A stretch of 64,000 bases of DNA from Glandiceps talaboti (lineage: Eukaryota; Hemichordata; Enteropneusta; Spengelidae): contig NC_135566.1 of the NCBI RefSeq assembly GCF_964340395.1, positions 14,406,001 through 14,470,000 on the forward strand, in the 5' to 3' direction. Shown one piece after another: positions 33,927-57,085 of this stretch. Position 1 is the stretch's first letter, and each line of letters starts with the position of its first letter. The translations under genes and the position numbers were made by a program. The notes beneath the pieces are model-generated. The model worked only from the letters and a program-made list of their open reading frames with translations. It did not search any database and was not told where the DNA came from.

Positions 33927-36833
33927 TAGTGCAGGGGCATATGGGTTTTCGTGTGAAATGCAAGTTAATTTTATGAAACATATATGGTTACGTTCATTAT
34001 AGGACCACATATAAAAAAATACATGTTGGCAATTTTTATCTTCAAAATTAGTCTTAGGGGGCTAAAAATAAAATGTGGCCCCAAGACCCTATTCTTAACC
34101 ATTGGTTAGGCAACGAAAACCCATGAATCCATGTGATTATAGTCAACTTCCATTGATATGGCCTTAGCAACAGCCATTAATGCCAGTATATTTTGCAAAG
34201 ATAACAACATTTTTGGTTAGTCAGGCCAAAAAAAATATCAAAACATGTATGAAATATGCCTATCAACAAGACCATGTCCATAGCAACAGTCAGAACATTA
34301 TGTATATTGTAAAGATAACAACAGTAATTGGTAGGTATATATAAGGGCAGCTTTAATTCTGTTTCTCATGACCCAAACGACCCTAAATGTCTTCAATTAG
34401 ATGAAAAAAATTTAAATCGACGCCCTATATGGCAGGGTTAGGAAAACCATGAGTGAATGAAAATTATTTTTTATCGCTGAAATTTGGGCAAATTCAATAA
34501 AACAAACAGTTCAAATGTTCCTTCTGACTTTACTTGCCATTTCTAAGTCATTCAGAATGTTAAAATATGATTATGAATCGAAGTAATTTAGTACATACAT
34601 TAATGATAACAAAGTGCATGTGTCATAAAGTTTGATAATACCGTATAGCTTGTAATTTTAATGAGTTATTTGCATAATTAGTTATTTTCAGTAATTACGC
34701 TAGATCTTAAGAATGCACTCATCCTCTGGTGTTATATGGATGTGTGAGCTGATTAAAAATATGCACTTCTGATCGCAATAGATATTATACTTAATCGATA
34801 AAATAGAGAAAATATCACTATACTAGTACATGTATATTTTGGCATGTCATACCTCTCAGTATCGAAACAATAAACGGTTCATGCATATATTCGGAATAGG
34901 TAGCCGGTGAAGGTCAGCTATGAAACAGTGATGCGAAGCCCAGAGTTAGTCGAATCTCCACTAAAACTACATCGAGCTGTAAGCCATTAATACACGTACA
35001 ATTACTGAAATTTAACTAGCAAATTACAGTCTACCATCTTTGAAACAAGTGAATATATCCATCGCCCTTTTGTAATAAAACTTGGCGAATCTCATAAGCT
35101 TAAGGTGAACAGATTACACTAACCTAGATCGTGTGGTGGTGTCTGTGGATGGTAGACTGGTAGCCTGAATGAGAAGGAATGGGTACTCTTATGTAGGTTT
35201 TATTTGAGTAGACGTGGTAACAAGGAAAAAAATAGTTGACAAAACAACTACTTGAGTGGTAGACCTGATTATTTTTTTTTCAAAATTATTGTCTAGTATT
35301 AAATTGATTTTACTGGCACGACCCAACCTTTACCATACCTGTGACCCACCTAACTACCATCTCTGTCAAGGGGTAGTACGAGACAAAGTGACACTTTTGA
35401 CTGTTCACAGCCCCCAGGGGAGAGGTCACCGGGGGTGAATTAAGTCAAAGGTGTCACTTCATCTCATACTCACCACATTTACACATCCTCTGCTAAAGAT
35501 TTACCCCGGTGGAAAGACATGGTCAAATATGACTTTTTGTATAGTGAAACTAAAATGGTGGACTCTAGTGAAATTTACAACGGGTTAAAAATACACCAAA
35601 CTCAACTTTTACAAAAGAGGATATGAACAATAAGTTCCAAAGCTACGTTTTATTTATTGATGTAGTAACTAATGGATATGCAATATCATGTCTGGTAGCG
35701 CAGAATTTTTCTTTCGACAAGGCGTGAAGGAACAGCAATCTAAAGTTTTGCCTTTATTGAAGGCATTCAGTTTACATATGATATAAACATATTTTTTGAT
35801 CAATAGCATAGCATCAATTGAATCGTTACTATACAAAGTTATGTATTCGAGTGAATAGACCCAATTATTTTTATTCAAAACTACTGTCTAGTCTCTCACT
35901 CACGCCATTATGTCGTATGCATTGTCTACGTTTCTACTAGTGTAGCTATTTGGTTGGAGTTACATGTCAATTCAAGGGAACAACATGAAAAGATGTGTTC
36001 TCCGCTGTTACATTTGATTACGTTATTTCATCGAAATTCTAAAATAAAACAGGATAAACAGCATAAAATAAAGATGATAAATTCAGTATCTGAAGAATAT
36101 CTTTTCTAATATTTCAAAGGAACAATATGAATATATACATATTTAGTTTAGTTATTCAGCGTGAGGGCACGATTACGCAACGAACTTTCTCTTGGTCAGT
36201 CATGAATAAAGGTTGAAAGTAACAGCAGAGACACATTCTAATGTACCACCCAACCCCAACCACCAACCCACCAGACCTAAACTTGGACTCTATATCCTGT
36301 GTAGAATGTACCTGTCCAGCATTCAATACTACATGTGTAGATACGTATTAAAACCAGATGCCAGATCTGAAAAGGAATATTTTTAATGTGTGTATGTACA
36401 CTTGATAACAAGCGACTTCTGTCGTTTAGATTTCAAAATCAGTTCAAGAGATTTCGAAAAGGACCGTACACAAGCGGAGTTGCTAAACTACAAACTCCAC
36501 GATCACATCTGTTGTAAGTATTCATTGCAGATTTGAATGTCGTGTACTAGTATATGTTTTGTTGTACTGTCATGTGTGTTGGCGATTTTTCTCTATACAG
36601 ATATAAAGCAATCGTACAGTTCACATATTTTAATTTGCCATCAATATACAGAAAAACCATGATTTTACATCATTTATGAAATTGCTGCAAAAATTACCCT
36701 TAATATTGAAATAAAAATTGCCAACATATATTTTTTAATTGCTCAGATGATGGGGAACACAATGATATATGTTGGCAAAAATTAACATGAATTTCACACG
36801 AAACCCAAAAATCTGCCATATGCCCCCGCACTA
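33927..36833. mobile_element. TIR DNA element with AAG target duplication, copy 1 version
   Basis: Begins TAGTGCAGGGGCATATGG and ends CCATATGCCCCCGCACTA, flanked by AAG at 33924-33926 and 36834-36836. It has lost two blocks (about 1.3 kb) relative to 49369-53579. At 35293-35295 a related, reverse-oriented host sequence shows the single-copy target (AATAC-TAG-ACAATAATTTTG). No transposase recognised. Confidence 0.75.
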
Positions 36834-36893
36834 AAGGCAATAATTTTGAAAAAAATATTAATCAGGTCTACCACTCAAGTAGTTGTTTTGTAA

Positions 36894-37296
36894 ACGGTCA
36901 CAAATGCAATTTGCATTTGTGACCATTTCGGAAGGGGGGGGGGGCAGTGTTTGTTCGATGGTTTGTTGTCGTTTATTCATGTATGTATCTACTCATGTAC
37001 TGTGTCGGGTAGTTTGTTTGTTTGTTTGTGTTTGTTTGTTTGTTTGTTTGTTTATTTATTTATTTGTTTACTCGTTTATTTTTTTTATTTTTTGTTTACT
37101 TGTTTGTTTGTTTGTATGTATGTATGTATGTATGTATGTATGTACATGTATGTATGTATGTATGTATGTATGTATGTATGTATGTATGTATGTATGTATG
37201 TACATGTATGTATGTATGTATGTATGTATGTATGTATGTATGTATGTATGTATGTATGTATGTATGTATTTGTAAACAAAACTAACTGAGCCTGAG
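36894..37296. repeat. One-armed foldback with GTTT and GTAT microsatellite
   Basis: Retains the centre GGTCACAAATGCAATTTGC and the right arm through GTTTG and about 40 GTAT units, ending AACTAACTGAGCCTGAGCAC. The complementary left arm, present in copy 2, has been deleted. Frames through it are artefacts. Confidence 0.85.
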
Positions 37297-37309
37297 CACC
37301 CTGTGGTCT

Positions 37310-40010
37310 ATCCATGAGAGTCCAATCCTTTTATACCCGATTTTACGGAGAAAGGTATTGTGATCGCATGCTGGCTGACCTGTGCCGAACCAACTACATG
37401 CCTGTGAACTTATCAGAGATATGGTAAGCACAGAGAGTATCTGCAGACATCTGCCGCGATACGTCGAGATACATGTATAGTTCTGGTTCAGAGCTGGTTA
37501 TTTTGACTTGGATCTTCAGGGCGGTCCTTTGACCTGTCAGCTATATGTAAGCCGAGTCCCAATCAAAAAGGCTAAAAAAATGCCGCCATACATTGTCCTT
37601 TGCTGACTCGGGATTATTATGGTTTGCGATGTTTTTGTGGAGACAGCAGGGCGCCAATATGTGGCATATTTTACAATTTACCCTGCAATTTACAACGAAA
37701 GTGAAATACAACACGTGTAATATTTTTTTAGAAATCATGAATAACTGGTGTGAGAATTTGTTTACATTTTGTTTGTTTGTTTGTTTTGATTCAGTAAAAC
37801 GAAAATGATATCTCGAAATATATTTTTTATATATTTTGCTTTGGATGGGCGAAAAAGTGATCTCGAGTTGTAATGTTAGATTTCAGAAAACGAACGGCAA
37901 TGTTATATCCGGTCTTGTGAATTTTTCCTTTGCATTTTAAAATAATCTCGAGGTAGCTTTTGCATTCACAAATTGACGTTATCTCGAATATAAGTTGCTT
38001 TCGACCGGAAAATGAGATACAACTTGTTGACTCTCTCGATAACGAGAAGGTTTCTCGACGTGTCAATATCTTGAGATCAGATTACGTATTTGTTGCCGTT
38101 TCTGTTGAGATGTGAAGTACAGGCCGTTCGCGTAAAACAGCAGACCTAACCATAGTCTATCAGCTAGCCCTCGGATGTTCTTCCGATAAAATACGACACA
38201 CAGCCGAACAACGCTATCGAGGATGGAACATCCGAGTGTTCGGGCAGGCCCTCACATGCGAACTTCGTTCGCTTATAGTTTTAGCATCGAAAGAAAGCCC
38301 GAACGTCTAGCAGCAAGACTAACCTAACCACACATTTCGTCGTTTACAAATCCTTGGGGCGTATGTATCATGGGTAGGGTTCTTTATTTTCATGAATTAC
38401 AATATTGTGGACAATTGTATGTTTATATTTGTTTCCCCATGTATCGATCCGTAGTGTCATGTTCGATTGAATGTCGACCGCCAAAACATATGGAACATGT
38501 ACTAAAATGTTGTATAGAACACGCAGGCCGGTGGTGATAATTGGTCGACCATTTATACATTGTCATAAGTGTAATGAGATGATAAACAAGTGGTCCCCAC
38601 ATATTGTAGATTTCCTGTGCATTGGAATATAGACAAAACTTTCCCACAATCGACAAGTTTATCTATCGAGTAATATAAAAGTCGAGTGTAAACCTATAGT
38701 CTTCCTGGTCCTAAAATAAACTTACAATGTATGGATTATATGTTGAGTTTTGGGCTGAAAATCGCCACAGAACATGACCTTACAGCAGGACATAGAAACG
38801 TCTTCACTGAATAATTCCAACAGATGTGCTCGTGGAGTTTGTATTTTAGCAACTCCGCTTGTGCACGGTGCTGACTGGTTGGGAGAATTTTTCTAAATCT
38901 CTTGAACGGAAAAAAAATTATTGTGGACTCGGTTTTGAAATCTAAACAAAATAAATAATCTGAGTATTTCAGAAGAACCGGATCAATACCATTTAGAAAG
39001 GTGTCAACCGTCTTTCGCCGTGGCGTATTGTAGTGTCTATGGTACCTGTTGGTTCTGACTCTAATAGTTTGATAGTGACATGAAGTAGACTTTTTTTTCG
39101 GCACCCTCAAAGCCAATTTTCATTGTCCATCACTACAACAACGTTCGGATCAGAGGCGTTTCTATATATCTCCAGCAATGGTTGTATTTGTGACAACCCG
39201 GGGTGGCTGATAGTACGAACATGTAACAGTTTGATCGATCAGACTGTGTAACTCGGTATGCTACGCACACTCGCGTACTCATATACAACAATCGTAATAA
39301 TAATTTATTTTTTTCTGGTATTCATGGAGTCGGCATGCACAACACTTCAAACTTGGACAACAATATTTTTTATTTTCATGTCATAGTTTTGGTCGGTAGA
39401 CTTTTGGGAGGCTTTTACAAAATTCCCAAATGTCCATCTTGTTCTGTGTTGATGAACTTGTAGCCACATTGACGTTGTTACACCGTGTGCCGGGTCTATG
39501 GTCACACGGACGTTCTCTATACGTTTGGTTCAATGCAAATTCTCGCAGTTTCCTGTAATAAACTAATATAATGTTATGCTCTGACATCTGACAAGAATCA
39601 AATCAAACTCTGAAAAAAATAAACGGCACTCAAGTACACTTATTTTATGTGACAATCGAGCATGTTGGCGGTAATCATGATCAGAACCTAACACTGGATG
39701 TATTTGCGCCGCGATACTACGACATATGATCGGACTATCGGAACGCATCATCATAGGCCTGAGAGCTAGATCAGAACAGACCACAGTAATCAGTCGTCAA
39801 CACGTAGCTCAGTAGCATGCGTTTGCGATATAATTATTGGCTCGGAATGTTTGGGTTATTTTGACAAATACATGGCACAATGTCTTGGAATATTTTTAGT
39901 CAAAAAGTTTGAACGGTAACTTATGGAACGTGGAAAACAAAACCATTTAGTGTTGCGTACAACACAGCCGTGTGAATACTCGAGTCACGTATTCATGTGC
40001 TCCCTCTTTT
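37310..40010. repeat. 2.7-kb repeat of unknown origin (C repeat), copy 1
   Basis: Nearly identical to 54400-57085 and, reversed and diverged, to 16580-20095. A minus-strand frame of 126 codons (38736-39116, ..DPVLLKYSDYLFCLDFKTEST..) is open in both duplicate copies but disrupted in the old copy. A short related piece lies reversed inside the TIR element of copy 2 (52385-52660). No known domain was recognised. Confidence 0.65.
38153..38322. mobile_element. 170-bp element with 8-bp target duplication
   Basis: Body TAGTCTATCAGCTAGCCC...GTCTAGCAGCAAGACTAA, flanked by CCTAACCA at 38145-38152 and 38323-38330. The old relative at 19468-19475 has a single TGGTTAGG with no insert, which proves the insertion and the duplication length. 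Confidence 0.85.
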
Positions 40011-40084
40011 AAACGGACTGGCGGTGGAGTCCTGGTTGGACATTGAACATCGTCAAAACAGTTGTACCAAATGAATATTTAATG

Positions 40085-40480
40085 TGCGGTGATGACATCC
40101 TGTTATTACTATTTATGCAAACCCCTACCACTGCATTTAGAGAAATTAATCGCTAAATATAGATTGTCGTCACATAGTTTAGCCATAGAAACCGAACGCT
40201 ATCAAGCTACAGCCAGGAATTTGATAAATTGCCCAAAGTGTAACAATGACATTGAGGATGAGTACCATTTTGATCTTAAATGTCCTTTCTACACCGACCG
40301 TCGCTCCAAAAAACATTAAACCATATTATTGAAAGAAACTATCTGTGTTCAAACTTGTACAGTTATTCTCTGTCCGTAATGTAAAGCAAACGTATAACTT
40401 AGGACAATTCTTGAGACATGCAGGAAATTTAAGAATCATGCAATGTTTTATTTGCAATGTATATACTTCTGGGATTTGGG
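40085..40480 (+). pseudogene. LINE ORF2 3' end with CCHC motif
   Basis: Reads LIAKYRLSSHSLAIETERY then NLINCPKCNNDIEDEYHFDLKCPFYTDRR, the C-terminal zinc-like motif (C-x2-C...H...C) of the LINE group also seen at 46.7 kb (CEICTQGIEDEYHVIFVCPLY). A shifted frame continues VKQTYNLGQFLRHAGNLR. 5'-truncated and frameshifted. Confidence 0.7.
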
Positions 40481-42508
40481 GATTTTATTTTTCATTCTCC
40501 ATATATTTTCCTGTGTACAGTCATGTAAATTTTTCTTGGTTGTGTATGTTACTGATGAGCAGTGATCCTCAAAGTGAATCAAAATAATTGTAATTGTAAG
40601 TGTAGTGACATACGCTTTTAGCACTTCACTCGCTATGGGTCTGAACCATAATTAACACCTTTCACCAGGGTCTGTGACTACACTGCGTGAGTAAAGGTAT
40701 GAATAGTAACGATACTGTATATAGGAAGTAGACTATTATAAATGCAGAAGCAATGCAACTTTTTTTTCTCGGTTACCAATTTTGTAACGTGTGGTTCATA
40801 ACTATACCTACATGTCACTGGTTCAAAAGTACTTGTTCTGTGTAAGTATAGTAGCAATAAGTAATAGTTTCATAGTTTTCTAGTTTTCAGCACATCGAAA
40901 CTATTTTTTTTTTCTGTCTGTTGGAACAATTTTTTTTCTCAAGCCATTACGGGATCAAATTATTTTTTTTGTCTCCTTCACCTGCCGACAATTTTTTTCG
41001 ATGAGTTTGTAATAAAAACTGCTCACAGTTCAACTACAAAAGTGATGCACCAATTGGGAGACATGGACTTGAAGTAAAAAAGTTGGGTTTGATAAAAGAG
41101 CAAGTCCGGTTGTATACGTCTGCCATTATTACTGGGTTCACATTTATTTATTTTTTACTCATACTATATACTGCATTTTCCACTTTGATTTTAGTAGTTT
41201 TTAGCTGTTTTATCGTTCTATTTTTTACTATCACTTTGTATCCGTTTATGTTTATTTTAGACCCTGTAGAAGACCTCCTGTGTGGAGTCGAAACTTTGGG
41301 TATTAAAGTTTGTTTTTTTAACGTAGACAACCGGACTTATCAACCCAATCCCCCCCCCCCAAAAAAAAAAAAATCCACCCCCACCCACCCAATGAAATCA
41401 AATGGTTCTCCCCTTATCTGCGGTTCACACCAACGTAAACTATTATGAGGTGTATGCAGAAATCCGGATACCAATTCTACCAAACCATAGACCCTACACG
41501 TGATCAAACAAACAATCATGTAAACTGTTATAGTAGCAACGGACTACTCGGAGCCCTTGTAGTACTCCATTGTGGTCTACCGTAACGTCATCATGCAAGC
41601 TCTTAAAAAAACCGTAAGACTTTAGGTATAACCCTACACGTAGGGTCTATGATGGTAGAACAAACTGTCGACGCGTTTCTTTGAGCAATGTATTACTGAT
41701 CGGTGTCCAAAGTGATACAACACTAGAACTAGTATTTGCTGTACGCTTTGCATATTTGTCCATTGACAAACGTTGGTGGAGGGTCTATGGTTTGTCATTG
41801 TCAAGTAACATACTAGACTCTCTCACAGCCCTCGGTGCTTCGCATTACTGTAAAATTAAGCTAAACGAATTATTTTGTAAGTACTGATACCATCTACATA
41901 ACGTACTCCATGACCTTACTCGAATAGCCTTGTACTGTGCGCCCTCATCGACCATGATAGAGATAACCATTCGTCACGGTTGACGTGTGACTGCGACGCT
42001 CCGTGTTTTCGCGAAGCCCAAAATAATTCGTTTAACTTTAATTTAAGTCAAACGACGCTCCGAGAACTGTGAGAGAGTTTAGTAACATACCGGTTTCAAG
42101 ATAATCTATTAAAGGGCGTAAACAAATCATTGGCTCTTTGTAACCTTACCATGGTATGCGTTTTATTGATCGTTCCCATTCTCGCAAACCAGAGTTATTA
42201 TTTCTGCAGCTACATTTCGAAATAAATTCCTGTGGGAGGCTCGTTAAGAACATTGCCGTAAAACAGACCATGGTTTGCGATGATGATCGTTCCTGTCTAG
42301 ACTTATTGTTTCCGTTGAGTTCATTAACATATAATCGTTAATTGCGTGCTCTATTTGCTCATACCTCCATGCTCTGAAGCACTAGGTCTGTGTTTGTTTG
42401 TTGATAAAGAATTTGAATATCTGACGGAGGACGATATTGGCTTCCTTATGGCTACAAGATTCCTCATTTAATATTAGGTGTTAATCGAATGTAATTTCGG
42501 AGCTTTAA
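40481..42508. other. Right part of duplication copy 1, no gene recognised
   Basis: T-rich runs at 40905-41000 and C/A runs near 41350-41375. A hydrophobic frame at 41083-41448 and others at 41681-41887 and 42156-42341 have no family match. ACCATAGACCCTACACGTG at 41484 and CTACACGTAGGGTCTATGAT at 41632 form spaced inverted ends of the micro-hairpin type. Confidence 0.4.
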
Positions 42509-43613
42509 AGGCCCGTATTTCAATCCCGGGTCACCGCATTAGGGACTACTCCACCCAGTACACAGCGTCTTATCTGAGCGGATTACATGTAACACTCACG
42601 TCACCGTGTCCACATATCAATGACAACGATCAAACATTTACTAATCCTGTTATGACAGTCACTGTTTCTGCCTGAACCAAAATCATTTATAGTAACAACG
42701 GACATCGGAATCATTTCACTGCGTTGCTAGTCGTTGTGATACTCGAACTGTATTATGTACAGGCTCGCAACGAAACGGCCATATACACATTGAGCTTGAA
42801 AGTTCGGCCGACACAGTATACAGCGACTGTGCAGTGTGCGTATTATACCATAGACAATGGATGGCAGTTGTCTACTGCATATAACACTTTTGACTCGACA
42901 GAGGTGGTAATTTTGTTTCATTGTAATGTGTCATAATTACGTAACACATATAGTTTTATAAATAAAAGAATGAATTTCACGAAAAAGAACCTATTGTATG
43001 TTTGTTCAAAGATCGGAATACAAATGTACCGGGGAGACAGCTGTGTTGACGTATCACACAACAATGCACTAGCGATGGCAAAGGAACTGTCTGAAGTAAA
43101 TCGCTGTTTTGTTTATCGTTCATTGCAATGTCCCGAAAGGGTTGAACGGGCCAATTTTATAACTTTACCACTGTATAGTGAATCAAAATATGGAGCTTGG
43201 ACGACAGCGTATGAATATAACGGGGTGTGTTGTACACCGGGGATGTACGTACGTGGCAGGGTGGAGCCGAAGACAATTGCACTTACAGCTACACGACTTT
43301 TGCAATTGAAACTCATGATCCAAAAAATCTGTTTCGGCACCATTTTGAATAGTATTCTGCCTTCTTTCCTTGTATATTTTTTGTCCAGACGCGTTACATT
43401 ATTTTCTGTTGATGCAGCATGTACTATGTGTATCATAACACGGAAAGTCGGGTTGACGTCATGCTCAGTTTAGATTGAGATGATCGACATACTGCCACTT
43501 CCAACGACATGGTGAAAAAGAATGCGTTGTTACATGTAATCAATTCAAAATAATACGCAGATAATGGGCGGAAAAAACCCCAAAATTTACTTCTTTAAAA
43601 AAAAAGATTTACA
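42509..43613. other. Unassigned sequence with an ORF of unknown nature
   Basis: A 167-codon plus frame (42970-43473, beginning MNFTKKNLLYVCSKIGIQMY) is open but I recognise no domain. It could be an upstream coding segment of the following ORF, but no splice pair was convincing. Confidence 0.3.
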
Positions 43614-44030
43614 GGTTCGTTATTATTTCGGCGGAGTTTGAATTTATTGTGTGATTTGGCACGCTCGGGTATCGGGGACGATCTGCAAGATCAAAACAAC
43701 GACATTGCTTTGCATCAAAACGAATGTCCGCACTGCCTTTGCTACCCGTGTGTCACAACATACCGACAAGACTGGCTTGGTATGGGCCAGGAACCTTGTG
43801 ACGAAAATGTTTTGGTTCGCCATCGGCTCTACCGAAAGTATTGGAATATGCTCGACCGAAGAAATGCGTGGAACGATCCACGCTACTTACATAGGAAGCA
43901 GCAACTAATGCAGGCTGATGATGTTGCCATCAGTCGTAGGGAAGTGATGCCTAAATGCGTCACTTCGCAGGTACGGTCTCTTTATCCAAATTTACCCGGT
44001 GTGCCGTACAGAGGTCATAGCTGGGCGTAA
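43614..44030 (+). CDS. P2X7-C-terminal-like zinc-binding domain protein, 5' incomplete
   Basis: Open frame ending TAA at 44030; no ATG precedes the domain, and an acceptor-like TTTACAG ends at 43613, so the N-terminus is missing or in another exon. The domain reads CPHCLCYPCVTTYRQDWLG, then VRHRLYRKYWNMLDRRNAW, RYLHRKQQL, then RREVMPKCVTSQVRSLYPN and PYRGHSW. This matches the fold seen in the cytoplasmic ballast of P2X7 receptors (Cys-rich zinc site, Y..W..L, MP.CV...R..YP.P....Y.G), found widely as stand-alone proteins in invertebrates, often in many copies. There are no membrane segments, so it is not a receptor here. The stop is followed after 40 bases by a histone-type stem-loop, unusual for such a gene. 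Function unknown. Confidence 0.6.
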   Translation, partial: GSLLFRRSLNLLCDLARSGIGDDLQDQNNDIALHQNECPHCLCYPCVTTYRQDWLGMGQEPCDENVLVRHRLYRKYWNMLDRRNAWNDPRYLHRKQQLMQADDVAISRREVMPKCVTSQVRSLYPNLPGVPYRGHSWA

Positions 44031-44070
44031 GCTCGGTCTAACCGAACGGCTGAAAAGCCACAAACCAAAC

Positions 44071-44086
44071 GGCCCTTTTCAGGGCC
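44071..44086 (+). promoter_or_regulatory. Histone mRNA 3' stem-loop
   Basis: GGCCCTTTTCAGGGCC forms a six-base stem with a TTTC loop, preceded by ACCAAAC and followed by ACCA. This fits the SLBP-binding element of replication-dependent histone mRNAs in stem, loop and both flanks. Its place, 40 bases after the stop codon at 44028-44030, is typical of histone genes. No purine-rich downstream element for U7 snRNP is seen, because LINE sequence begins within a few bases. Confidence 0.85.
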
Positions 44087-44090
44087 ACCA

Positions 44091-46982
44091 CATCCTCCAG
44101 CTCATATTTACGAGGGTGATCTGTTTTGTATGGCTCGCAAATCAAAAGATAAGACTTCAAACAATTTCGGTAAAAGTTTGCTTTCTTTGTGTTGTACACT
44201 TTCAATGCATGTATTAAATGGTAGATTTAATGGTGACAGGGAAGGCCACATTACATGTACAGCCAACAATGGTAAAAGTGTTGTAGATTTCATAGTCGTA
44301 TCGTCTTGTTTATTTGATTCAATTGCGGATTTTAAAGTTGGAGATAGAAACGAATCGGATCACTTTCCCATTGAAAGTGTTTTAAGGTGTAAATTACATC
44401 GACACACAGATGGAGACATGAATATGAATGAGTTCACAAGGTATAGATGGAATTCTAAAGAAGAGCATACCTTTGTAAATAAATTTGGTACAGGTGATGT
44501 GGCCAACCTCTTAGAGGAGTGTAATGCAAATATTGGTGTCAATAATGATGAAGCGATCGATTGTATTGTTAAAGCTGTCAAAATGGCGGGATCTTGCATG
44601 AAATGTCCAAGTGGTACACAAAAGCGATCGCGCCAACAACAGCCCCCATGGTTCAACCGTATTTGTCAGCAGCAAAAACATCAGGTGAAAAAAAAATTGT
44701 ATGAATTTAGGAAAAATAGCACAGAAGAATCTCTGCACGTCTACAAACGTAGTCGAAACTTGTTCAGAAATACATGCAGGAAGTTTAAAAGAAACCATGC
44801 TGATACATTATCGACAAAACTGAGAAACCAATGGGAGCATGTTTCAGGTAGTGATGGTATGTGGGCCATGATCAAAGACAGTCAGAAAGGATCACGTGAT
44901 AACCCGTCAATTTCATGCAAACAGTGGGTCGACTATTTCACAAAATTAAGCAACCCTCAAAATACGTCATTTGGTGTAACTTTTGAGGAAGAGAATAGTG
45001 TAGGTTTGGATTCAGATGATACGTATTTAGATATTTTGAATTCAAGCATCACTGACGAGGAAATCATGAAAGTGGTATTAAGATTGAAAAACGGCAAATC
45101 ACCTGGTCCAGACGGCATACCGTCAGAATTTTTCAAATGTACTGTATCTACCTTGTTGCCCATTATGAATAATCTATTCAACAATATTTTTGATACAGGT
45201 AATTTCCCTAAAGGATGGTCACGTGGTGTTATTATCCCATTGTACAAAAAAGGTTCCAAATCAGATCCCAATAATTATAGGGGAATAACCTTATTAGACG
45301 TGTTTGGGAAAATATTCTGCAGTGTTTTAAATGATAGGTTATACAGATGGGCTGAAAACACTAATGCTATTTGTAACGCCCAAGCTGGATTCCGTAAAGG
45401 GTATTCAACAATGGACAATATCTTTTCTTTACATGCTATGATTCAGAACTACCTCAGAAGAAGGAGAGGGAAATTTTACTGCCTGTTTGTGGACTTTGCA
45501 AAAGCGTTTGATTCCGTTAATCACAAATGTCTGTTTTTTAAACTTCAGTCTATTGGCCTCTCTGGCAAAATGTATAACGTAGTCAAATCCATGTATAGTG
45601 ATGTCAAATCATGTGTGCGTTTAGATGGGGGAGTGTCAGATTATTTTAATTGCAACATTGGTGTAAGACAAGGAAGTGTTTTAAGCCCTGTGCTATTCTC
45701 CTTTTTCATTGATGAATTGTATCGCATGATTAAAACTGTTGGTGTTAGGGGTATACAATTAACACAGGAAATGTATGATTTATTTATCTTACTTTATGCA
45801 GACGACATTATACTCTTCGCAGACTCTGTCATTGGTTTGCAAAGATTGATTCACGTACTTGCTGAATTTTGTAACAAGTGGAAACTCCAGATAAACACGG
45901 ACAAAACAAAGGTTGTAGTATTCCGCAAAGGGGGTCATAATGCAAGGAGTGAAACTTGGAAAATGAATGGAAAGGTCATTGATGTTGTAACATCATACAA
46001 ATATCTTGGTTTATTGTTGTCATGTAGGAACACATGGACAAAAGCTGTAGGTAATTTAGCCGCTCAGGCACGGAAAGCAATGTATTCAATTTTTAAGTTC
46101 GAACGAAAAGTTGGTACCGTCAAACGTGATGTTTATTTTAAACTGTTTGATTCTCTTATTGCACCAATATTATTGTACGGAACTGAGATTTGGGGATATA
46201 AGCAATATGTTATAACAGAAAGGGTACACTTAAAATTTTGTAAACATTTTTTAGGCGTTACCCAAAGTACTCCAAATGAAGCTGTACTTGGGGAGTGTGG
46301 AAGATATCCCTTGTTTATTAACTCAATTACAAAATGCATTAAGTATTGGTTACGCCTTACTGGGCTCTCAGATGACAGACTAGCCGCGCATGCATACAAG
46401 CTCATGTTTAAAAATGACGAAAATGGTCACTCATCATGGGCCACAGAGATCAAACATGTCCTTTGCTCATATGGCTTTGGCATAGTTTGGCTTCATCAAG
46501 GTGTAGGGGACATGGCATCGTTCATTTCGGAATTCAAACAACGTGTAACTGATGTTTACAAACAGGAATGGTATAGTGAAATATGCACAAAAGACAGACT
46601 CAAAACATATCGTAATTTCAAAAGTATGCTGGAGCCAGAGAAATACTTGATGGAGATTACAGATTTAAAGTATAGACATGCGTTAGCCAGATTGAGATGT
46701 TCATGTCTCGGTTTAAGAGTTCAAGAGGGTATTTATACTGGTGTTGACATTGATAACAGAATCTGTGAAATTTGTACACAGGGTATAGAGGATGAATACC
46801 ATGTCATATTTGTATGTCCACTGTATCAGAACTTGAGATATCTTTTACCTCAGTATTACTATATTTTTCCTACAGAAGATAAATTTTGTACATTAATGAG
46901 GTCAGAGTCACAAACAGTTTTACGAAATCTCGGTAAATTTGTGTTTAAAGCCATTAACTTGAGAAAAGAATATTTTCTGTAA
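44091..46982 (+). CDS. LINE ORF2 (endonuclease C-terminus, reverse transcriptase, CCHC), 5'-truncated
   Basis: A long uninterrupted frame (over 950 codons) of a non-LTR retrotransposon. In order: the end of the apurinic-type endonuclease (VLNGRFNGDREG, then NESDHFPIE, near residues 30-90), reverse transcriptase blocks NGKSPGPDGIPSEFF, GVIIPLYKKG, NNYRGITLLDVFGKIF, QAGFRKGYSTMDNIF, LFVDFAKAFDSVNH, VRQGSVLSPVLFSFFIDEL, the catalytic LLYADDIILFAD, WKLQINTDKTKVVVF and YKYLGLLL, then a C-terminal CEICTQGIEDEYHVIFVCPLY zinc-like motif. The ATG at 44130 lies inside the endonuclease and is not a natural start; coding similarity continues upstream to about 44091. No ORF1. The open frame and intact YADD show recent insertion. 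Clade not assigned. Confidence 0.9.
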   Translation, partial: HPPAHIYEGDLFCMARKSKDKTSNNFGKSLLSLCCTLSMHVLNGRFNGDREGHITCTANNGKSVVDFIVVSSCLFDSIADFKVGDRNESDHFPIESVLRCKLHRHTDGDMNMNEFTRYRWNSKEEHTFVNKFGTGDVANLLEECNANIGVNNDEAIDCIVKAVKMAGSCMKCPSGTQKRSRQQQPPWFNRICQQQKHQVKKKLYEFRKNSTEESLHVYKRSRNLFRNTCRKFKRNHADTLSTKLRNQWEHVSGSDGMWAMIKDSQKGSRDNPSISCKQWVDYFTKLSNPQNTSFGVTFEEENSVGLDSDDTYLDILNSSITDEEIMKVVLRLKNGKSPGPDGIPSEFFKCTVSTLLPIMNNLFNNIFDTGNFPKGWSRGVIIPLYKKGSKSDPNNYRGITLLDVFGKIFCSVLNDRLYRWAENTNAICNAQAGFRKGYSTMDNIFSLHAMIQNYLRRRRGKFYCLFVDFAKAFDSVNHKCLFFKLQSIGLSGKMYNVVKSMYSDVKSCVRLDGGVSDYFNCNIGVRQGSVLSPVLFSFFIDELYRMIKTVGVRGIQLTQEMYDLFILLYADDIILFADSVIGLQRLIHVLAEFCNKWKLQINTDKTKVVVFRKGGHNARSETWKMNGKVIDVVTSYKYLGLLLSCRNTWTKAVGNLAAQARKAMYSIFKFERKVGTVKRDVYFKLFDSLIAPILLYGTEIWGYKQYVITERVHLKFCKHFLGVTQSTPNEAVLGECGRYPLFINSITKCIKYWLRLTGLSDDRLAAHAYKLMFKNDENGHSSWATEIKHVLCSYGFGIVWLHQGVGDMASFISEFKQRVTDVYKQEWYSEICTKDRLKTYRNFKSMLEPEKYLMEITDLKYRHALARLRCSCLGLRVQEGIYTGVDIDNRICEICTQGIEDEYHVIFVCPLYQNLRYLLPQYYYIFPTEDKFCTLMRSESQTVLRNLGKFVFKAINLRKEYFL

Positions 46983-47120
46983 AATTGTTTCAATGAGTGT
47001 ATAGAACGTTTACTTTCTTTTTTTTGTTTATCCTGTTCATATTTCTATATTGTTAAAATTGCATTATGTATTGTGTCATATTGGCCGGTGGCCTTAAGAC
47101 AAATAAATACTATTATATAA
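46983..47120 (+). other. LINE 3' untranslated tail
   Basis: AT-rich tail containing TGGCCGGTGGCCTTAAGACAAATAAATAC, a small GC stem then an AATAAA-type signal, as often ends LINEs of this kind. The exact end and target duplication were not found. Confidence 0.5.
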
Positions 47121-47291
47121 AAAGAGTGTACCTTAAATAAACTACACGTTCATGTTTTGCGTATGTCGGTGTTGTCATTTGTTAGCAATTTTATTCGAAT
47201 TTGAGATCAAAACACCTTTCTAATTGGTTTTCTACTGTATGTGTAAATGGTACTCCCATCACCAAAAAATAAAACCCAAACAGAAAGACAA

Positions 47292-47292
<1 letters not shown>

Positions 47293-47347
<55 letters not shown>
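47293..47347. repeat. (CA)n microsatellite
   Basis: About 26 CA units followed by CAAA units. Confidence 0.95.
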
Positions 47348-47350
<3 letters not shown>

Positions 47351-48225
47351 AACACAAAGTAGTCACATTTCTACCACTGTATACTTTTGCCTTGTCGCCG
47401 GACCGTACTTCTGATTTGATCATTACCGTTATGTTAAGTAGAGGTAAATAATCTAGCGAATTGATTATCGAGATACTACCAACCCCCCAGGGAGTTACGC
47501 AAACGTTTACACAGTATTTGAGTGACAGCTGTTTGGACGCTTCTAACCTAACATTTCGCCACATACCACATGACAACATACATCAAATTTCGCTCCCAGA
47601 TCATCATAATTTACAAAACAATTCACACAGGCACCTCTTCTACATATTTATAATTCATTTTGGGATACATTTAGAGTAAATGCTCGGGAAATAGCCGTGA
47701 TTTTGACAGTTTTCTTGGAGCACCCAGGCGGTGTTAGGCGTACGAGAGGCTTTGCATAAATGAGCGTCCCTACTGTAATCCTCCTTTTATAGTCGATACG
47801 GGCCTTAAACATTAATATTTTTGAGCTTTTAAAACTTTACACTCGGTATTGAACCACAGTGGCTGTTTCTATGGTTTCCTAATCAATGTAACATTTTTCA
47901 ACGTACCACAGTGGACAGCAGCAGATTTACAAACTTATTTAATTATATTATTCACACTTCATTATCGCCACTTCAAGCTGGGGTTTTGACGGGCGGGCAA
48001 GGGCGATTTTGGACACCCGGGGGCAACACAGGTGATTACCGCCGACTTGAATAAGATCACCTCCCTTACGAACTTGAGCAAGAGTACGGACAAGCTGCAT
48101 ACTCACCCTCTTGTAAACGTCGGAAATGTTACGACTATATATAGCTATGGAATGAAATATCTCCTTTTTGACAAAAATCCCAGTGGGTAAGACGAAAATT
48201 CTAGAGTTCGACTTACTATAGACAT
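47348..48225. other. Unassigned sequence
   Basis: No gene recognised; frames at 47461-47679 and 47948-48295 (minus) lack motifs. Confidence 0.35.
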
Positions 48226-48414: not shown

Positions 48415-49037
48415 AAACTTGTAGTAAAAGGATAGACTGCATACGAGACAATGTATGTGTTGTAACTTGTTCCATATTTCTGCATTTTCCAATCAAATAT
48501 GCTATTCATAATTTTGACCATCCCAAACAAGCAAGTTTTAAAGCAATAACTCACCTAAATCTCGCTCGATTTTCAAGCTGTTTCCGCAGAAATTGTATAA
48601 GAAATTGAATAAGCTTACACGGAGATATAGCCTGGATGCCAACTGTGAACCACAACACAAAACGTTTTGTGGGGTTCTGGGTAAGTACCAGTTCTTCATT
48701 GCCGAGCCTAAACGTTTATTACATATTCAAGACGTAAGCTTACATGATGTAACTTGTAAGCCTTCACATCAAGTTACAGATTTTTATTTTTGAAAATGCA
48801 AGCAGCTTGAAGTCAAATCCGTAGTCAAAATCCTATATGTATGAAATTCAAAAATGGTCCAATTTAAATTAAATGGTCCAAAGGTCATCGTCTTTCAATG
48901 GAGTCCTTTCATTTGTTAATCAATATTCTATGCACAGGGACAACGACAAATGATCAATGGAGATTCTCTCCTCCATTGTCTATGATTTAGCTGACGCATT
49001 ATAGACGCAGCGGAACCATGGCGATCTGTATGTCAAT
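48415..49037. other. Left flank of duplication copy 2
   Basis: No gene recognised. ATTGAATAAGCTTACACGGAG near 48604 is shared with 15074, showing that this flank is continuous with the duplicated segment in the older arrangement. Confidence 0.4.
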
Positions 49038-49368
49038 GACCGGACATGATAACCCACAGTTCCCTGAGAACGAGTATCATCGCCTTGTAATATAATATTC
49101 AGACTTGGAACAACCCCAGAATCCCCAAAGTTGTCAACGGAATACGTGTGATACCCCTTGCTATTAGTTAAAGTTAATATACCGGCGTTATAAACAATTT
49201 TCTTTGGGCAAATACAAGTCTTACGTTTACAAAACACGGCTCTTCACAGAGATGGTAGTTAGGTTAGGTGTTTCACAGGCTGGGTAAAGGTGGGTAAATT
49301 TGACTTTTCGTATAGTTAACCTCAACTGAATCTCTTCTTTCGTGACAGTAAAATCAATTTAATACAAG

Positions 49369-52300
49369 TAGTGCAGGGGCATATGGGTTTTCGTGTGAAA
49401 TGCAAGTTAATTTTATGAAACATATATGGTTACGTTCATTATAGGACCACATATAAAAAAATACATGTTGGCAATTTTTATCTTCAAAATTAGTCTTAGG
49501 GGGCTAAAAATAAAATGTGGCCCCAAGACCCTATTCTTAACCATTGGTTAGGCAACGAAAACCCATGAATCCATGTGATTATAGTCAACTTCCATTGATA
49601 TGGCCTTAGCAACAGCCATTAATGCCAGTATATTTTGCAAAGATAACAACATTTTTGGTTAGTCAGGCCAAAAAAAATATCAAAACATGTATGAGATATG
49701 CCTATCAACAAGACCATGTCCATAGCAACAGTCAGAATATTATGTATATTGTAAAGATAACAACAGTAATTGGTAGGTATATATAAGGGCAGCTTTAATT
49801 CTGTTTCTCATGACCCAAACGACCCTAAATGTCTTCAATTAGATGAAAAAAATTTAAATCGACGCCCTATATGGCAGGGTTAGGAAAACCATGAGTGAAT
49901 GAAAATTATTTTTTATCGCTGAAATTTGGGCAAATTCAATAAAACAAACAGTTCAAATGTTCCTTCTGACTTTACTTGCCATTTCTAAGTCATTCAGAAT
50001 GTTAAAATATGATTATGAATCGAAGTAATTTAGTACATACATTAATGATAACAAAGTGCATGTGTCATAAAGTTTGATAATACCGTATAGCTTGTAATTT
50101 TAATGAGTTATTTGCATAATTAGTTATTTTCAGTAATTACGCTAGATCTTAAGAATGCACTCATCCTCTGGTGTTATATGGATGTGTGAGCTGATTAAAA
50201 ATATGCACTTCTGATCGCAATAGATATTATACTTAATCGATAAAATAGAGAAAATATCACTATACTAGTACATGTATATTTTGGCATGTCATACCTCTCA
50301 GTATCGAAACAATAAACGGTTCATGCATATATTCGGAATAGGTAGCCGGTGAAGGTCAGCTATGAAACAGTGATGCGAAGCCCAGGGTTAGTCGAATCTC
50401 CACTAAAACTACATCGAGCTGTAAGCCATTAATACACGTACAATTACTGAAATTTAACTAGCAAATTACAGTCTACCATCTTTGAAACAAGTGAATATAT
50501 CCATCGCCCTTTTGTAATAAAACTTGGCGAATCTCATAAGCTTAAGGTGAACAGATTACACTAACCTAGATCGTGTGGTGGTGTCTGTGGATGGTAGACT
50601 GGTAGCCTGAATGAGAAGGAATGGGTACTCTTATGTAGGTTTTATTTGAGTAGACGTGGTAACAAGGAAAAAAATAGTTGACAAAACAACTACTTGAGTG
50701 GTAGACCTGATTATTTTTTTTTCAAAATTATTGTCTAGTATTAAATTGATTTTACTGGCACGACCCAACCTTTACCATACCTGTGACCCACCTAACTACC
50801 ATCTCTGTCAAGGGGTAGTACGAGACAAAGTGACACTTTTGACTGTTCACAGCCCCCAGGGGAGAGGTCACCGGGGGTGAATTAAGTCAAAGGTGTCACT
50901 TCATCTCATACTCACCACATTTACACATCCTCTGCTAAAGATTTACCCCGGTGGAAAGACATGGTCAAATATGACTTTTCGTATAGTGAAACTAAAATGG
51001 TGGACTCTAGTGAAATTTACAGCGGGTTAAAAATACACCAAACTCAACTTTTACAAAAGAGGATATGAACAATAAGTTCCAAAGCTACGTTTTATTTATT
51101 GATGTAGTAACTAATGGATATGCAATATCATGTCTGGTAGCGCAGAATTTTTCTTTCGACAAGGCGTGAAGGAACAGCAATCTAAAGTTTTGCCTTTATT
51201 GAAGGCATTCAGTTTACATCTGATATAAACATATTTTTTGATCAATAGCATAGCATCAATTGAATCGTTACTATACAAAGTTATGTATTCGAGTGAATAG
51301 ACCCAATTATTTTTATTCAAAACTACTGTCTAGTCTCTCACTCACGCCATTATGTCGTATGCATTGTCTACGTTTCTACTAGTGTAGCTATTTGGTTGGA
51401 GTTACATGTCAATTCAAGGGAACAACATGAAAAGATGTGTTCTCCGCTGTTACATTTGATTACGTTATTTCATCGAAATTCTAAAATAAAACAGGATAAA
51501 CAGCATAAAATAAAGATGATAAATTCAGTATCTGAAGAATATCTTTTCTAATATTTCAAAGGAACAATATGAATATATACATATTTAGTTTAGTTATTCA
51601 GCGTGAGGGCACGATTACGCAACGAACTTTCTCTTGGTCAGTCATGAATAAAGGTTGAAAGTAACAGCAGAGACACATTCTAATGTACCACCCAACCCCA
51701 ACCACCAACCCACCAGAAAATAGTATCTAAAATCAAATTTTATTGCATTGTTAGCCATCATTCCAAGTTTTTTATTACTCAAATAAAATCTGACATTCAA
51801 ATCCTCAACATAAACAACATGGAATGTACCCTTCTACATCTTTTGGTAATTCTCATACACAAATAACCTTTATTGCTGGGAATAAGTAGTCACATGCCAA
51901 CTTGATGACTAAGTCTATCTCATTTTGACACCATTGCAAAGTGGGAAATTAATGAGCCCTCATGAAATGCCTTTAACAACGATTCATTTACTTTTTAACA
52001 TGATATTTCTACAGAACATAGAATACAGAACAAATAACAAAAACGTTCTAAAGTAGCTGCCATATTGACTTTTTCCATTGCTCTAGAATGTATCTCAATT
52101 GATCAAAAGTGGGGGTGAAACATTCTGAAGGTTTCTAAAGGTGTTTTACTGAGTGATGTTTCTTTTCTATCTAATATTTGCAGGAGGTCCATTTTATGTA
52201 ACTTGTATGCTAATATTGAGGTAAAATTTCAAATTTTGTGTAGACCTAAACTTGGACTCTATATCCTGTGTAGAATGTACCTGTCCAGCATTCAATACTA

Positions 52301-53579
52301 CATGTGTAGATACGTATTAAAACCAGATGCCAGATCTGAAAAGGAATATTTTTAATGTGTGTATGTACACTTGATAACAAGCGACTTCTGTCGTTTAGAT
52401 TTCAAAATCAGTTCAAGAGATTTCGAAAAGGACCGTACACAAGCGGAGTTGCTAAACTACAAACTCCACGATCACATCTGTTGTAAGTATTCATTGCAGA
52501 TTTGAATGTCGTGTACTAGTATATGTTTTGTTGTACTGTCATGTGTGTTGGCGATTTTTCGCCCAAAACTCAACATATAATCTATACACTGAAAGTTTAT
52601 TTTTAGGACCAGACAGACTATTACGTCGCATTATATAAGCTTATACTCAAATGTTATGTTACAACATGACAAACGTTCACAGGCACAGACAAACCGATAA
52701 AAGAGTCGCGTGAACCACAGACAAGTACATGTAGGTGCATGAACCTACAACAGAGGGGCGTGCCCGGTGTTGTTTTTGTGCCAATATTTGTCAGTTTGAT
52801 AGTGACAAGAAGTAGACTTTTTATTTCGTTCTGATCACAGGCGTTTCTATATAACTCCTGCAATGGTAGTATATGTACAAATATACAGCGTCAAAATGAT
52901 TTAATGTGTATGTATACATATAACGGGAATATTGATTAACGTTCAGTATATGCAGTTGTCATGGGGAGGGTCATGTTTTACAAAATGGGACAAAGGGGAG
53001 GGTCACTTTTTACGAAGGGAGAATGGGGGGGGGGGGAGGGTCATGTTTTTCTTAACAGACCATGTGTGATTTCCTCCGCCCCCTGTAAATACTGAAGGCT
53101 CCCTAAACCAACCAGAGTATTCAAAGTAACTGAAATAATTCATGGTTGGCGTACATTTTTGAAAGAATAGCAATCAGCAACATCAAACAATACAGGAAAT
53201 CAAATAAACCTGAAGCATCATACATAATATGCAAATGATATGCAAATAAATAAGCCAGAATTTATAATATTGTGATTAAAATGCAAAATTATACAACAGT
53301 CTACAAGTTTATCGTCAACAGGATGCCCATAAGTACATTTATACAGATATAAAGCAATCGTACAGTTCACATATTTTAATTTGCCATCAATATACAGAAA
53401 AACCATGATTTTACATCATTTATGAAATTGCTGCAAAAATTACCCTTAATATTGAAATAAAAATTGCCAACATATATTTTTTAATTGCTCAGATGATGGG
53501 GAACACAATGATATATGTTGGCAAAAATTAACATGAATTTCACACGAAACCCAAAAATCTGCCATATGCCCCCGCACTA
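49369..53579. mobile_element. TIR DNA element with AAG target duplication, longest version (4.2 kb)
   Basis: Ends TAGTGCAGGGGCATATGG and CCATATGCCCCCGCACTA, flanked by AAG at 49366-49368 and 53580-53582. Imperfect terminal inversion of about 150 bases. The interior holds nested repeats: a reversed piece of the C repeat (52385-52660), the G-rich repeat (52963-53108) and a copy of its own flanking sequence near 50660-50760. A 62-codon minus frame at 53218-53406 is also open at 12030-12218 but changes are mostly amino-acid altering, so it does not look selected. No transposase recognised. Confidence 0.8.
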
Positions 53580-53660
53580 AAGGCAATAATTTTGAAAAAA
53601 ATATTAATCAGGTCTACCACTCAAGTAGTTGTTTTGTAAACTGTTTTTGTCCTGGTTCTA

Positions 53661-54397
53661 CCACAGGGTGCTCAGGCTCAGTTAGTTTTGTTTACAAATA
53701 CATACATACATACGTACATACATACATACATACATACATACATACATACATACGTACATACGTACATACGTACATACATACATACATACATACATACATA
53801 CATACATACATACATACATACATACATACATACGTACATACGTACATACATACATACATACATACATACATACATACATACATACATACATACATACAAA
53901 CAAACAAGTAAACAAAAAAATTAAAAAAAATAAACAAGTAAAGAAATAAATAAACAAACAAACAAACAAACTACCCGACACATGAGTAGATACATACATG
54001 AATAAACGACAACAAACCAACGAACAAACACTGCCCCCCCCCCTTCCGAAATGGTCACAAATGCAATTTGCATTTGTGACCATTTCGGAAGGGGGGGGGC
54101 AGTGTTTGTTCGATGGTTTGTTGTCGTTTATTCATGTATGTATCTACTCATGTACTGTGTCGGGTAGTTTGTTTGTTTGTTTGTGTTTGTTTGTTTGTTT
54201 ATTTATTTATTTGTTTACTCGTTTATTTTTTTTATTTTTTGTTTACTTGTTTGTTTGTTTGTATGTATGTGTGTATGTATGTATGTATGTATGTATGTAT
54301 GTATGTACATGTATGTATGTATGTATGTATGTATGTATGTATGTATGTATGTATGTATTTGTAAACAAAACTAACTGAGCCTGAGCACCCTGTGGTC
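53661..54397. repeat. 737-bp near-perfect foldback palindrome
   Basis: ACCACAGGGTGCTCAGGCTC at the left is the exact complement of GAGCCTGAGCACCCTGTGGT at the right. Both arms carry (GTAT)n/(CATA)n, GTTTG-rich segments and a poly-G/poly-C run, meeting at GGTCACAAATGCAATTTGC near 54066. Long repetitive frames here are artefacts. Confidence 0.9.
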
Positions 54398-54399
54398 TA

Positions 54400-57085
54400 T
54401 CCATGAGAGTCCAATCCTTTTATACCCGATTTTACGGAGAAAGGTATTGTGATCGCATGCTGGCTGACCTGTGCCGAACCAACTACATGCCTGTGAACTT
54501 ATCAGAGATATGGTAAGCACAGAGAGTATCTGCAGACATCTGCCGCGATACGTCGAGATACATGTATAGTTCTGGTTCAGAGCTGGTTATTTTGACTTGG
54601 ATCTTCAGGGCGGTCCTTTGACCTGTCAGCTATATGTAAGCCGAGTCCCAATCAAAAAGGCTAAACAATGCCGCCATACATTGTCCTTTGCTGACTCGGG
54701 ATTATTATGGTTTGCGATGTTTTTGTGGAGACAGCAGGGCGCCAATATGTGACATATTTTACAATTTACCCTGCAATTTACAACGAAAGTGAAATACAAC
54801 ACGTGTAATATTTTTTTAGAAATCATGAATAACTGGTGTGAGAATTTGTTTACATTTTGTTTGTTTGTTTGTTTTGATTCAGTAAAACGAAAATGATATC
54901 TCGAAATATATTTTTTATATATTTTGCTTTGGATGGGCGAAAAAGTGATCTCGAGTTGTAATGTTAGATTTCAGAAAACGAACGGCAATGTTATATCCGG
55001 TCTTGTGAATTTTTCCTTTGCATTTTAAAATAATCTCGAGGTAGCTTTTGCATTCACAAATTGACGTTATCTCGAATATAAGTTGCTTTCGACCGGAAAA
55101 TGAGATACAACTTGTTGACTCTCTCGATAACGAGAAGGTTTCTCGACGTGTCAATATCTTGAGATCAGATTACGTATTTGTTGCCGTTTCTGTTGAGATG
55201 TGAAGTACAGGCCGTTCGCGTAAAACAGCAGACCTAACCATAGTCTATCAGCTAGCCCTCGGATGTTCTTCCGATAAAATACGACACACAGCCGAACAAC
55301 GCTATCGAGGATGGAACATCCGAGTGTTCGGGCAGGCCCTCACATGCGAACTTCGTTCGCTTATAGTTTTAGCATCGAAAGAAAGCCCGAACGTCTAGCA
55401 GCAAGACTAACCTAACCACACATTTCGTCGTTTACAAATCCTTGGGGCGTATGTATCATGGGTAGGGTTCTTTATTTTCATGAATTACAATATTGTGGAC
55501 AATTGTATGTTTATATTTGTTTCCCCATGTATCGATCCGTAGTGTCATGTTCGATTGAATGTCGACCGCCAACACATATGGAACATGTACTAAAATGTTG
55601 TATAGAACACGCAGGCCGGTGGTGATAATTGGTCGACCATTTATACATTGTCATAAGTGTAATGAGATGATAAACAAGTGGTCCCCACATATTGTAGATT
55701 TCCTGTGCATTGGAATATAGACAAAACTTTCCCACAATCGACAAGTTTATCTATCGAGTAATATAAAAGTCGAGTGTAAACCTATAGTCTTCCTGGTCCT
55801 AAAATAAACTTACAATGTATGGATTATATGTTGAGTTTTGGGCTGAAAATCGCCACAGAACATGACCTTACAGCAGGACATAGAAACGTCTTCACTGAAT
55901 AATTCCAACAGATGTGCTCGTGGAGTTTGTATTTTAGCAACTCCGCTTGTGCACGGTGCTGACTGGTTGGGAGAATTTTTCTAAATCTCTTGAACGGAAA
56001 AAAATTTATTGTAGACTCGGTTTTGAAATCTAAACAAAATAAATAATCTGAGTATTTCAGAAGAACCGGATCAATACCATTTAGAAAGGTGTCAACCGTC
56101 TTTCGCCGTGGCGTATTGTAGTGTCTATGGTACCTGTTGGTTCTGACTCTAATAGTTTGATAGTGACATGAAGTAGACTTTTTTTTCGGCACCCTCAAAG
56201 CCAATTTTCATTGTCCATCACTACAACAACGTTCGGATCAGAGGCGTTTCTATATATCTCCAGCAATGGTTGTATTTGTGACAACCCGGGGTGGCTGATA
56301 GTACGAACATGTAACAGTTTGATCGATCAGACTGTGTAACTCGGTATGCTACGCACACTCGCGTACTCATATACAACAATCGTAATAATAATTTATTTTT
56401 TTCTGGTATTCATGGAGTCGGCATGCACAACACTTCAAACTTGGACAACAATATTTTTTATTTTCATGTCATAGTTTTGGTCGGTAGACTTTTGGGAGGC
56501 TTTTACAAAATTCCCAAATGTCCATCTTGTTCTGTGTTGATGAACTTGTAGCCACATTGACGTTGTTACACCGTGTGCCGGGTCTATGGTCACACGGACG
56601 TTCTCTATACGTTTGGTTCAATGCAAATTCTCGCAGTTTCCTGTAATAAACTAATATAATGTTATGCTCTGAAATCTGACAAGAATCAAAAAAATAAACG
56701 GCACTCAAGTACACTTATTTTATGTGACAATCGAGCATGTTGGCGGTAATCATGATCAGAACCTAACACTGGATGTATTTGCGCCGCGATACTACGACAT
56801 ATGATCGGACTATCGGAACGCATCATCATAGGCCTGAGAGCTAGATCAGAACAGACCACAGTAATCAGTCGTCAACACGTAGCTCAGTAGCATGCGTTTG
56901 CGATATAATTATTGGCTCGGAATGTTTGGGTTATTTTGACAAATACATGGCACAATGTCTTGGAATATTTTTAGTCAAAAAGTTTGAACGGTAACTTATG
57001 GAACGTGGAAAACAAAACCATTTAGTGTTGCGTACAACACAGCCGTGTGAATACTCGAGTCACGTATTCATGTGCTCCCTCTTTT
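54400..57085. repeat. 2.7-kb repeat of unknown origin (C repeat), copy 2
   Basis: Nearly identical to 37310-40010, with small indels (for example near 56690, where a 15-base piece is missing). Same 126-codon minus frame at 55824-56204. Confidence 0.7.
55241..55410. mobile_element. 170-bp element with 8-bp target duplication, duplicated copy
   Basis: Same insertion as 38153-38322, with CCTAACCA at 55233-55240 and 55411-55418. Confidence 0.85.

Follow-up and report, generated by a model that had tools for sequence, protein, structure and literature searches.

Histone mRNAs are described, in the accessible parts of two papers, as the only class of metazoan mRNAs that lacks a poly(A) tail and ends in a stem-loop (PMC12775136, PMC2642717). 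In histone genes, as the available text of the sources puts it, the stem-loop is bound by the stem-loop binding protein SLBP, a downstream element is bound by the U7 small nuclear ribonucleoprotein (U7 snRNP), and the RNA is cut between the two (PMC5636114, PMC2642717). Non-histone mRNAs without poly(A) have been described in human cells, and the accessible part of that paper does not link them to the histone stem-loop (PMC3188798). Among titles and abstract openings, a coverage that leaves most subscription journals outside, we found no report of a complete histone 3ʹ signal in genes other than those of histones. Here we describe a locus in a 64,000-nucleotide stretch of the genome of the hemichordate Glandiceps talaboti (assembly GCF_964340395.1, contig NC_135566.1, forward-strand positions 14,406,001 to 14,470,000; hereafter the window), where an open reading frame (ORF) called P2X7C-like is followed by a histone-type stem-loop. 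We consider it probable that the locus is a dead copy of a Kolobok-type transposon, carrying a member of a P2X7C-like gene family in which the histone-type block works as it does in histone genes.

In the window, the frame spans 43599–44030, with its stop codon at 44030 as originally predicted, and it can be aligned to genomic relatives only from about position 43665 onward. This alignable 3ʹ part (43665–44030) corresponds to residues 87–207 plus the stop of the homologue P0001, a protein of 207 amino acids, and is 99% identical to it from residue 87 on. The 3ʹ untranslated region (UTR) that follows (44031–44070) has as its final 12 nt the flank CACAAACCAAAC, which is common with histone genes, and leads into the hairpin GGCCCTTTTCAGGGCC at 44071–44086, downstream of which stands ACCAC. 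When the consensus GGYYYTTHTCARRRCC was sought with at most one mismatch, this hairpin was the sole match in the window (0.13 expected), and 12 of 100 shuffled windows contained at least one match. The Rfam model Histone3 scored 31.5 bits against the hairpin (E 2.6e-7 in 401 nt), which falls short of the model's gathering score (34), and a plain Rfam scan of the window accordingly reported nothing. The hairpin has a folding energy of −11.4 kcal/mol (z −3.84). Consensus match, Rfam model and folding thus bear out the histone stem-loop that had been proposed from the letters of the window. No core histones were found in the window (best E 0.95).

A search of the 590-Mb assembly (47 contigs) with P0001 gave 84 protein matches, among them about 30 loci at 95–99% identity on many contigs. 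We fetched 48 loci around these matches, one of which (L048) overlaps another (L005), and they fall into three subfamilies. Subfamily I comprises 31 fetched loci, some of them ORF fragments. The nine fetched loci of subfamily II lie on contigs C20 and C21 and are 50–52% identical over the C-terminal part and 38–39% over a longer alignment. Subfamily III (L028, L038–L042 and L046) shows 64–78% identity over the C-terminal part of its better copies. The gene's stem-loop lies 40 nt past the stop codon and belongs to a 48-nt block composed of an A-rich flank, the stem-loop, ACCACA, a spacer and AAAAAGAG. At all 31 subfamily I loci the stem-loop is followed by CATCCTCC-AAAAAGAG-TGTACC, the purine-rich downstream element being ACCACATCCTCC-AAAAAGAG, and the block matches at 44–48 of 48 positions. 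It matches at 44–46 positions in all nine subfamily II loci, with different UTRs, and at 45 positions in two of the seven subfamily III loci. Among the others of subfamily III, L028 has a decayed block 1.7 kb farther on, past an apparent insertion, L038–L040 are cut within the loop, and no block was found at L046. The purine-rich downstream element that the original prediction had proposed to seek in relatives is therefore present throughout subfamilies I and II and intact in two members of subfamily III. Four copies of the block (L016, L018, L036 and L042) have one unpaired stem position. Overall, the stem-loop is accompanied by an A-rich 5ʹ flank and an ACCA-like 3ʹ flank, and the purine-rich element stands about 12 nt past the stem, split in the window copy by a long interspersed nuclear element (LINE).

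The three subfamilies differ strongly around the block. Compared with one another, they match at 43–46 of 48 positions within it, at only 6–9 of the 30 nt upstream and at 6–9 of the 25 nt downstream, while the coding DNA over the last 74–110 codons matches at 56–68%, with about 60% of third positions different. Changes are fewer at the first and second codon positions, which shows that the protein was constrained across this older split between subfamilies. The comparison of the block and its flanks shows that two diverged subfamilies carry the block in unrelated surroundings, and the P2X7C-like family is thus a non-histone carrier of the cis-signals for 3ʹ-end formation by SLBP and U7.

We read seven histone gene ends of the same genome: H3 (L049, L050), H2B (L051), H2A (L052, L053) and H1-like (L064, L068). 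The types were assigned from adjacency to PF00125 matches and from C-terminal ends, which we take to be those of the respective histones. Five of the seven, compared pairwise with subfamily I, matched at 45–47 of 48 positions; against the same subfamily I reference, L052 matched at 45 and L064 at 41, so that six of the seven stand at 45–47. All seven contain AAAAAGAG, slightly altered in L052 and L064. The 3ʹ signal of the non-histone genes is thus that of the local histone genes, down to the spacer. In 11 of the 13 P2X7C-like cases listed, the stem lies 44 nt from the ORF match; the corresponding distance is 45–48 nt in 9 of 36 histone cases and 96–150 nt in most of the others, where it is counted from the point at which the profile match ends. 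P2X7C-like genes accordingly resemble replication-dependent histone genes in the 48-nt block, in a similar distance from stop to signal and in a single uninterrupted ORF. They differ in that the protein is not a histone, the gene is borne by a transposon, and the histone-type RNA end is predicted. As for the proposal that a non-histone gene has histone-style 3ʹ processing, its cis-signals were recovered across the gene family, and its RNA end is the part that stays a prediction.

The product of the intact gene is a P2X7C-like protein of 189 amino acids, encoded by an uninterrupted gene. A profile search collected 79 proteins, including named records from Branchiostoma, Mytilus and Pinctada, and the 66 members that were aligned have four Cys and four Trp residues in nearly invariant positions. 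The homologues form a family apart from histones, and no core-histone match was found at E ≤ 1e-5 in L001–L028 or at E ≤ 1e-3 in L029–L048. The relation of the family to the P2X7 receptor C-terminal domain (PF20478) appears weak. With a threshold of E ≤ 0.1, this profile matched 7 of the 66 members, the best of them at 0.0079 and thus short of its curated cut-off, and it gave no match in the window ORF at E ≤ 0.001 and none in P0001 at E ≤ 10; the name P2X7C-like, which we keep from the original prediction, is a weak one. The Cys pattern and order presumably resemble those of the receptor domain. P0001 also differs from that domain in having no usable structural match: by sequence, one search of the Protein Data Bank (PDB) gave no matches and another a single one at E 0.65, and by fold there was one at E 5.6 and none at E ≤ 0.001. 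The predicted structure model had a mean pLDDT of 78 and a pTM of 0.54. No relatives were confirmed in viral and prokaryote contigs by DNA pattern and protein searches.

The carrier of the window gene was recognized from the homology between copies, which spans about 42505 to 47809 in window coordinates. The ends were scanned in 29 sequences, and 18 of them, window included, had both ends within the available stretch. The scan pattern itself started with TTAA but tolerated six mismatches. The copy ends are sharp, reading TTAA-AGGCCCGTAT...ATACGGGCCT-TTAA in 16 of the 18, a few with small changes in the repeats; the exceptions to paired TTAA are L016 (TTAT) and the window (TAAA). Because L009 and L010 have common flanks, the 16 represent 15 distinct sites. 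Outside the window, the transposon is 2.0–3.1 kb long. A TTAA target-site duplication with 5ʹ-RR...YY-3ʹ ends, here AG...CT, is how Kolobok is described in the accessible parts of PMC9587614 and PMC6004289. The AG...CT ends do not fit piggyBac, which the available text of PMC9587614 gives as having the TTAA duplication without 5ʹ-RR...YY-3ʹ ends. L015, the longest copy measured and the only one for which frames were listed, has no transposase-sized frame (its longest frame besides the cargo has 155 amino acids), and no search was made for a Kolobok transposase or an autonomous partner. As far as seen, the carrier is a non-autonomous Kolobok-type DNA transposon. It is like the non-autonomous, T2-MITE-like members of the Kolobok superfamily, as these are described in part of the literature, in its TTAA duplication and AG...CT ends, and it differs from the superfamily in its cargo, a gene of cellular type that brings along a 3ʹ processing signal of its own, and from Kolobok T2 in its terminal AGGCC (the T2 motif is AGGRR).

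In the window copy, with all features on the forward strand, the left TTAA lies at 42505–42508, the left terminal inverted repeat AGGCCCGTAT at 42509–42518 and the 5ʹ non-coding part at 42509–43667, mostly 97–99% identical to other copies. An internal deletion at about 43667, common to L009 and L010, has removed the N-terminal coding part of the ORF. The stem-loop is followed by the expected cleavage site and spacer ACCACATCCTCCA (44087–44099), by a 5ʹ-truncated LINE (44100–47118) that comprises the end of the endonuclease domain and the reverse transcriptase, and by the displaced histone downstream element AAAAAGAG (47119–47126). The 3ʹ non-coding part (47127–47795) and the right terminal inverted repeat ATACGGGCCT (47796–47805) complete the copy, and then comes TAAA, where nearly all other copies have TTAA. 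The boundaries around the LINE were set by comparison with other copies. The window copy thus lacks the start of its ORF and has its downstream element separated from the stem-loop by a LINE; the locus appears to be one dead transposon copy, whose gene would no longer work.

Within the window alone, the order of ORF, stem-loop and truncated LINE fits the explanation given in the original prediction, in which LINE reverse transcriptase left its LINE RNA template for the 3ʹ end of a mature mRNA without poly(A) and produced a chimeric retrocopy. The LINE frame after the hairpin is genuine (RVT_1 E 9.9e-39; Exo_endo_phos_2 E 0.00085, below that profile's cut-off), and its second-best match is LOC144434256 of Glandiceps talaboti itself. 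However, L009 and L010 share the internal deletion of the window copy, have no LINE and continue without a break through the downstream element, which indicates that the LINE is a later insertion and refutes the chimeric retrocopy; we regard that explanation as virtually excluded. The LINE stands inside the purine-rich element, between ACCACATCCTCCA, which ends at 44099, and AAAAAGAGTGTACCTTA, the other half, which restarts at 47119. Compared with uninterrupted copies, it begins at 44100, 13 nt past the stem, instead of at about 44091 on a mature-mRNA end as had been supposed. Moreover, the copies run past the cleavage site and, with their TTAA duplications and terminal inverted repeats, are those of a DNA transposon. 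The marks of LINE template switching, namely a partner joined at its RNA 3ʹ end in a single insertion with one target duplication, were not found. A search for one target-site duplication around ORF, stem-loop and LINE gave short matches only, the wrong unit having been assumed, and the LINE itself has no clear target duplication at the window. The locus is like U6-L1 and similar template-switch chimeras in that a truncated LINE adjoins other gene-derived sequence, and differs in that the LINE was inserted later into a DNA transposon; the junction at the stem-loop is a coincidence. The copies likewise do not look like a stray histone gene tail with breakpoints of its own, an outcome that would have undone the original prediction. 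A misjoin in the assembly could also have juxtaposed these parts, as near-identical duplicate blocks (33582–42508 and 49024–59581, 98–99.7% over long pieces) flank the locus. The first block ends exactly at the left TTAA of the element, and the second ends at 59581 with an intact TTAA (...GAGCTTTAA), after which comes unrelated sequence. To the right, the two copies do not agree, which fits a misjoin and for which reason the window's own duplicate was rejected as a clean empty site. Yet the other subfamily I loci show the same succession from ORF part through stem-loop and downstream element to 3ʹ part, so the feature is independent of the join in the window, and an artefact of this kind seems very improbable.

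Our preferred reading is that the block in P2X7C-like genes works as in histone genes: SLBP would bind the stem-loop of the P2X7C-like RNA, U7 snRNP would pair with its AAAAAGAG, the RNA would be cut near ACCACA without polyadenylation, and the resulting histone-type end would tie expression to S phase. Alternatively, an ancestral gene may have taken up a histone tail passively, with the signal a relic and polyadenylation ordinary. Several observations favor this alternative or otherwise weigh against the working block. In 25 subfamily I loci used for a selection test (L009, L010, L043–L045 and L047 left out), 61 of 87 changes were nonsynonymous, 0.70 against 0.72 expected (p 0.63), which is neutral drift, and only nine of the 25 copies are full length without frameshift or stop, so subfamily I copies are mostly passengers; examples of intact copies are L001, L003 and L011. 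The nine fetched subfamily II copies (L029–L037) all have their ORF interrupted by the same early stop codon. Four subfamily I copies were tested for poly(A) signals, and each has AATAAA or ATTAAA about 160 nt beyond the stem, which makes polyadenylation possible there, and cleavage and the lack of poly(A) are predicted from the cis-signals. The block is nearly identical to that of histone genes, as expected from recent capture, and recurrent conversion by histone genes could mimic or account for its conservation. On the other hand, a relic is expected to decay like its flanks, and the block has been retained at 43–46 of 48 positions across three subfamilies whose third positions are about 60% different and whose flanks match at chance level, which speaks against passive capture. 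In the four copies of subfamilies II and III that were tested, neither AATAAA nor ATTAAA was found closer than about 600 nt to the stem. Taken together, we consider passive capture unlikely and hold to a block that works as in histone genes.

Genome-wide, the consensus stem-loop occurs at 312 places, compared with 26 for the reversed pattern. Of the 100 places listed (C1–C6), 36 follow a core-histone match by no more than 150 nt, another 13 are at P2X7C-like ORFs and 51 are elsewhere. We rejected this flankless scan as evidence, given its 26 reversed-control matches and two places (L056 and L060) in an unrelated palindrome. This palindromic repeat (AACGAAGATCAGAAGGT...CTGATCTTCGTT) holds the 16-nt histone stem-loop without flanks or downstream element. 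A composite pattern that joins the stem-loop to the spacer and downstream element, with at most two mismatches, gave 485 places against 0 for the reversed control. The 100 listed composite places, all exact and on C1–C8, include 17 at P2X7C-like ORFs and 44 at core histones; a further 26 lie within 8 kb of a core histone and are probably H4 or H1, and 13 lie farther away, H1-like L068 included. The core-histone list is a lower bound, so some of these 39 non-adjacent places may be missed histones.

The 51 stem-loops elsewhere were rejected in part as new genes, on the basis of 15 hand-chosen ones that we read. Two are Lys-rich H1-like ends (L064, L068), two are in the palindrome (L056, L060), two (L059, L065) are short of a complete downstream element, and the remaining nine carry the signal with no recognized histone end ahead. 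L055 and L062 carry one change in AAAAAGAG or its border. Frames stop shortly before the signal at L063, L066/L054 and L058/L067, and a Pfam scan of six peptides gave no match. L066, with L069 and L054, has a second non-histone frame (..SRRVG.AQ.CNLGF..) that ends shortly before a complete histone-type 3ʹ block, and similar HSRR.G.VQ.C..GF frames occur at L058, L067 and L061. A stem-loop with downstream element was also seen in another repeat, at position 1354 of L006 and 907 of L018, both on the minus strand, with no histone or P2X7C-like ORF recognized ahead.

Other P2X7C-like copies lie within different repeats. The subfamily II copies L029–L037, all on one strand, stand within several-kb repeats that are found on C21 and across about 3.5 Mb of C20. 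Decayed, subfamily II-like copies within other repeats occur in the window at 19903–20265, 37494–37327 (minus strand) and 54583–54416 (minus strand), and similar ones on C2, C4, C13, C20 and others. At L025 (C7:12018253–12018555), a P2X7C-like fragment lies within an open frame of 1772 amino acids.

We suggest, tentatively and as a possibility somewhat short of even, that hemichordates, and perhaps other invertebrates with the family, may have a set of non-histone, non-polyadenylated S-phase mRNAs processed by SLBP and U7. P2X7C-like genes would be one large family of this set, which a transposon would have exploited or spread, and the frames at L054/L066, L058/L067/L061 and L063 may be further members. 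If true, a non-histone family with the full signal would break the histone-only rule, would offer a natural test of the role of the SLBP/U7 pathway apart from histone supply, and would present a transposon carrying S-phase-type expression control.

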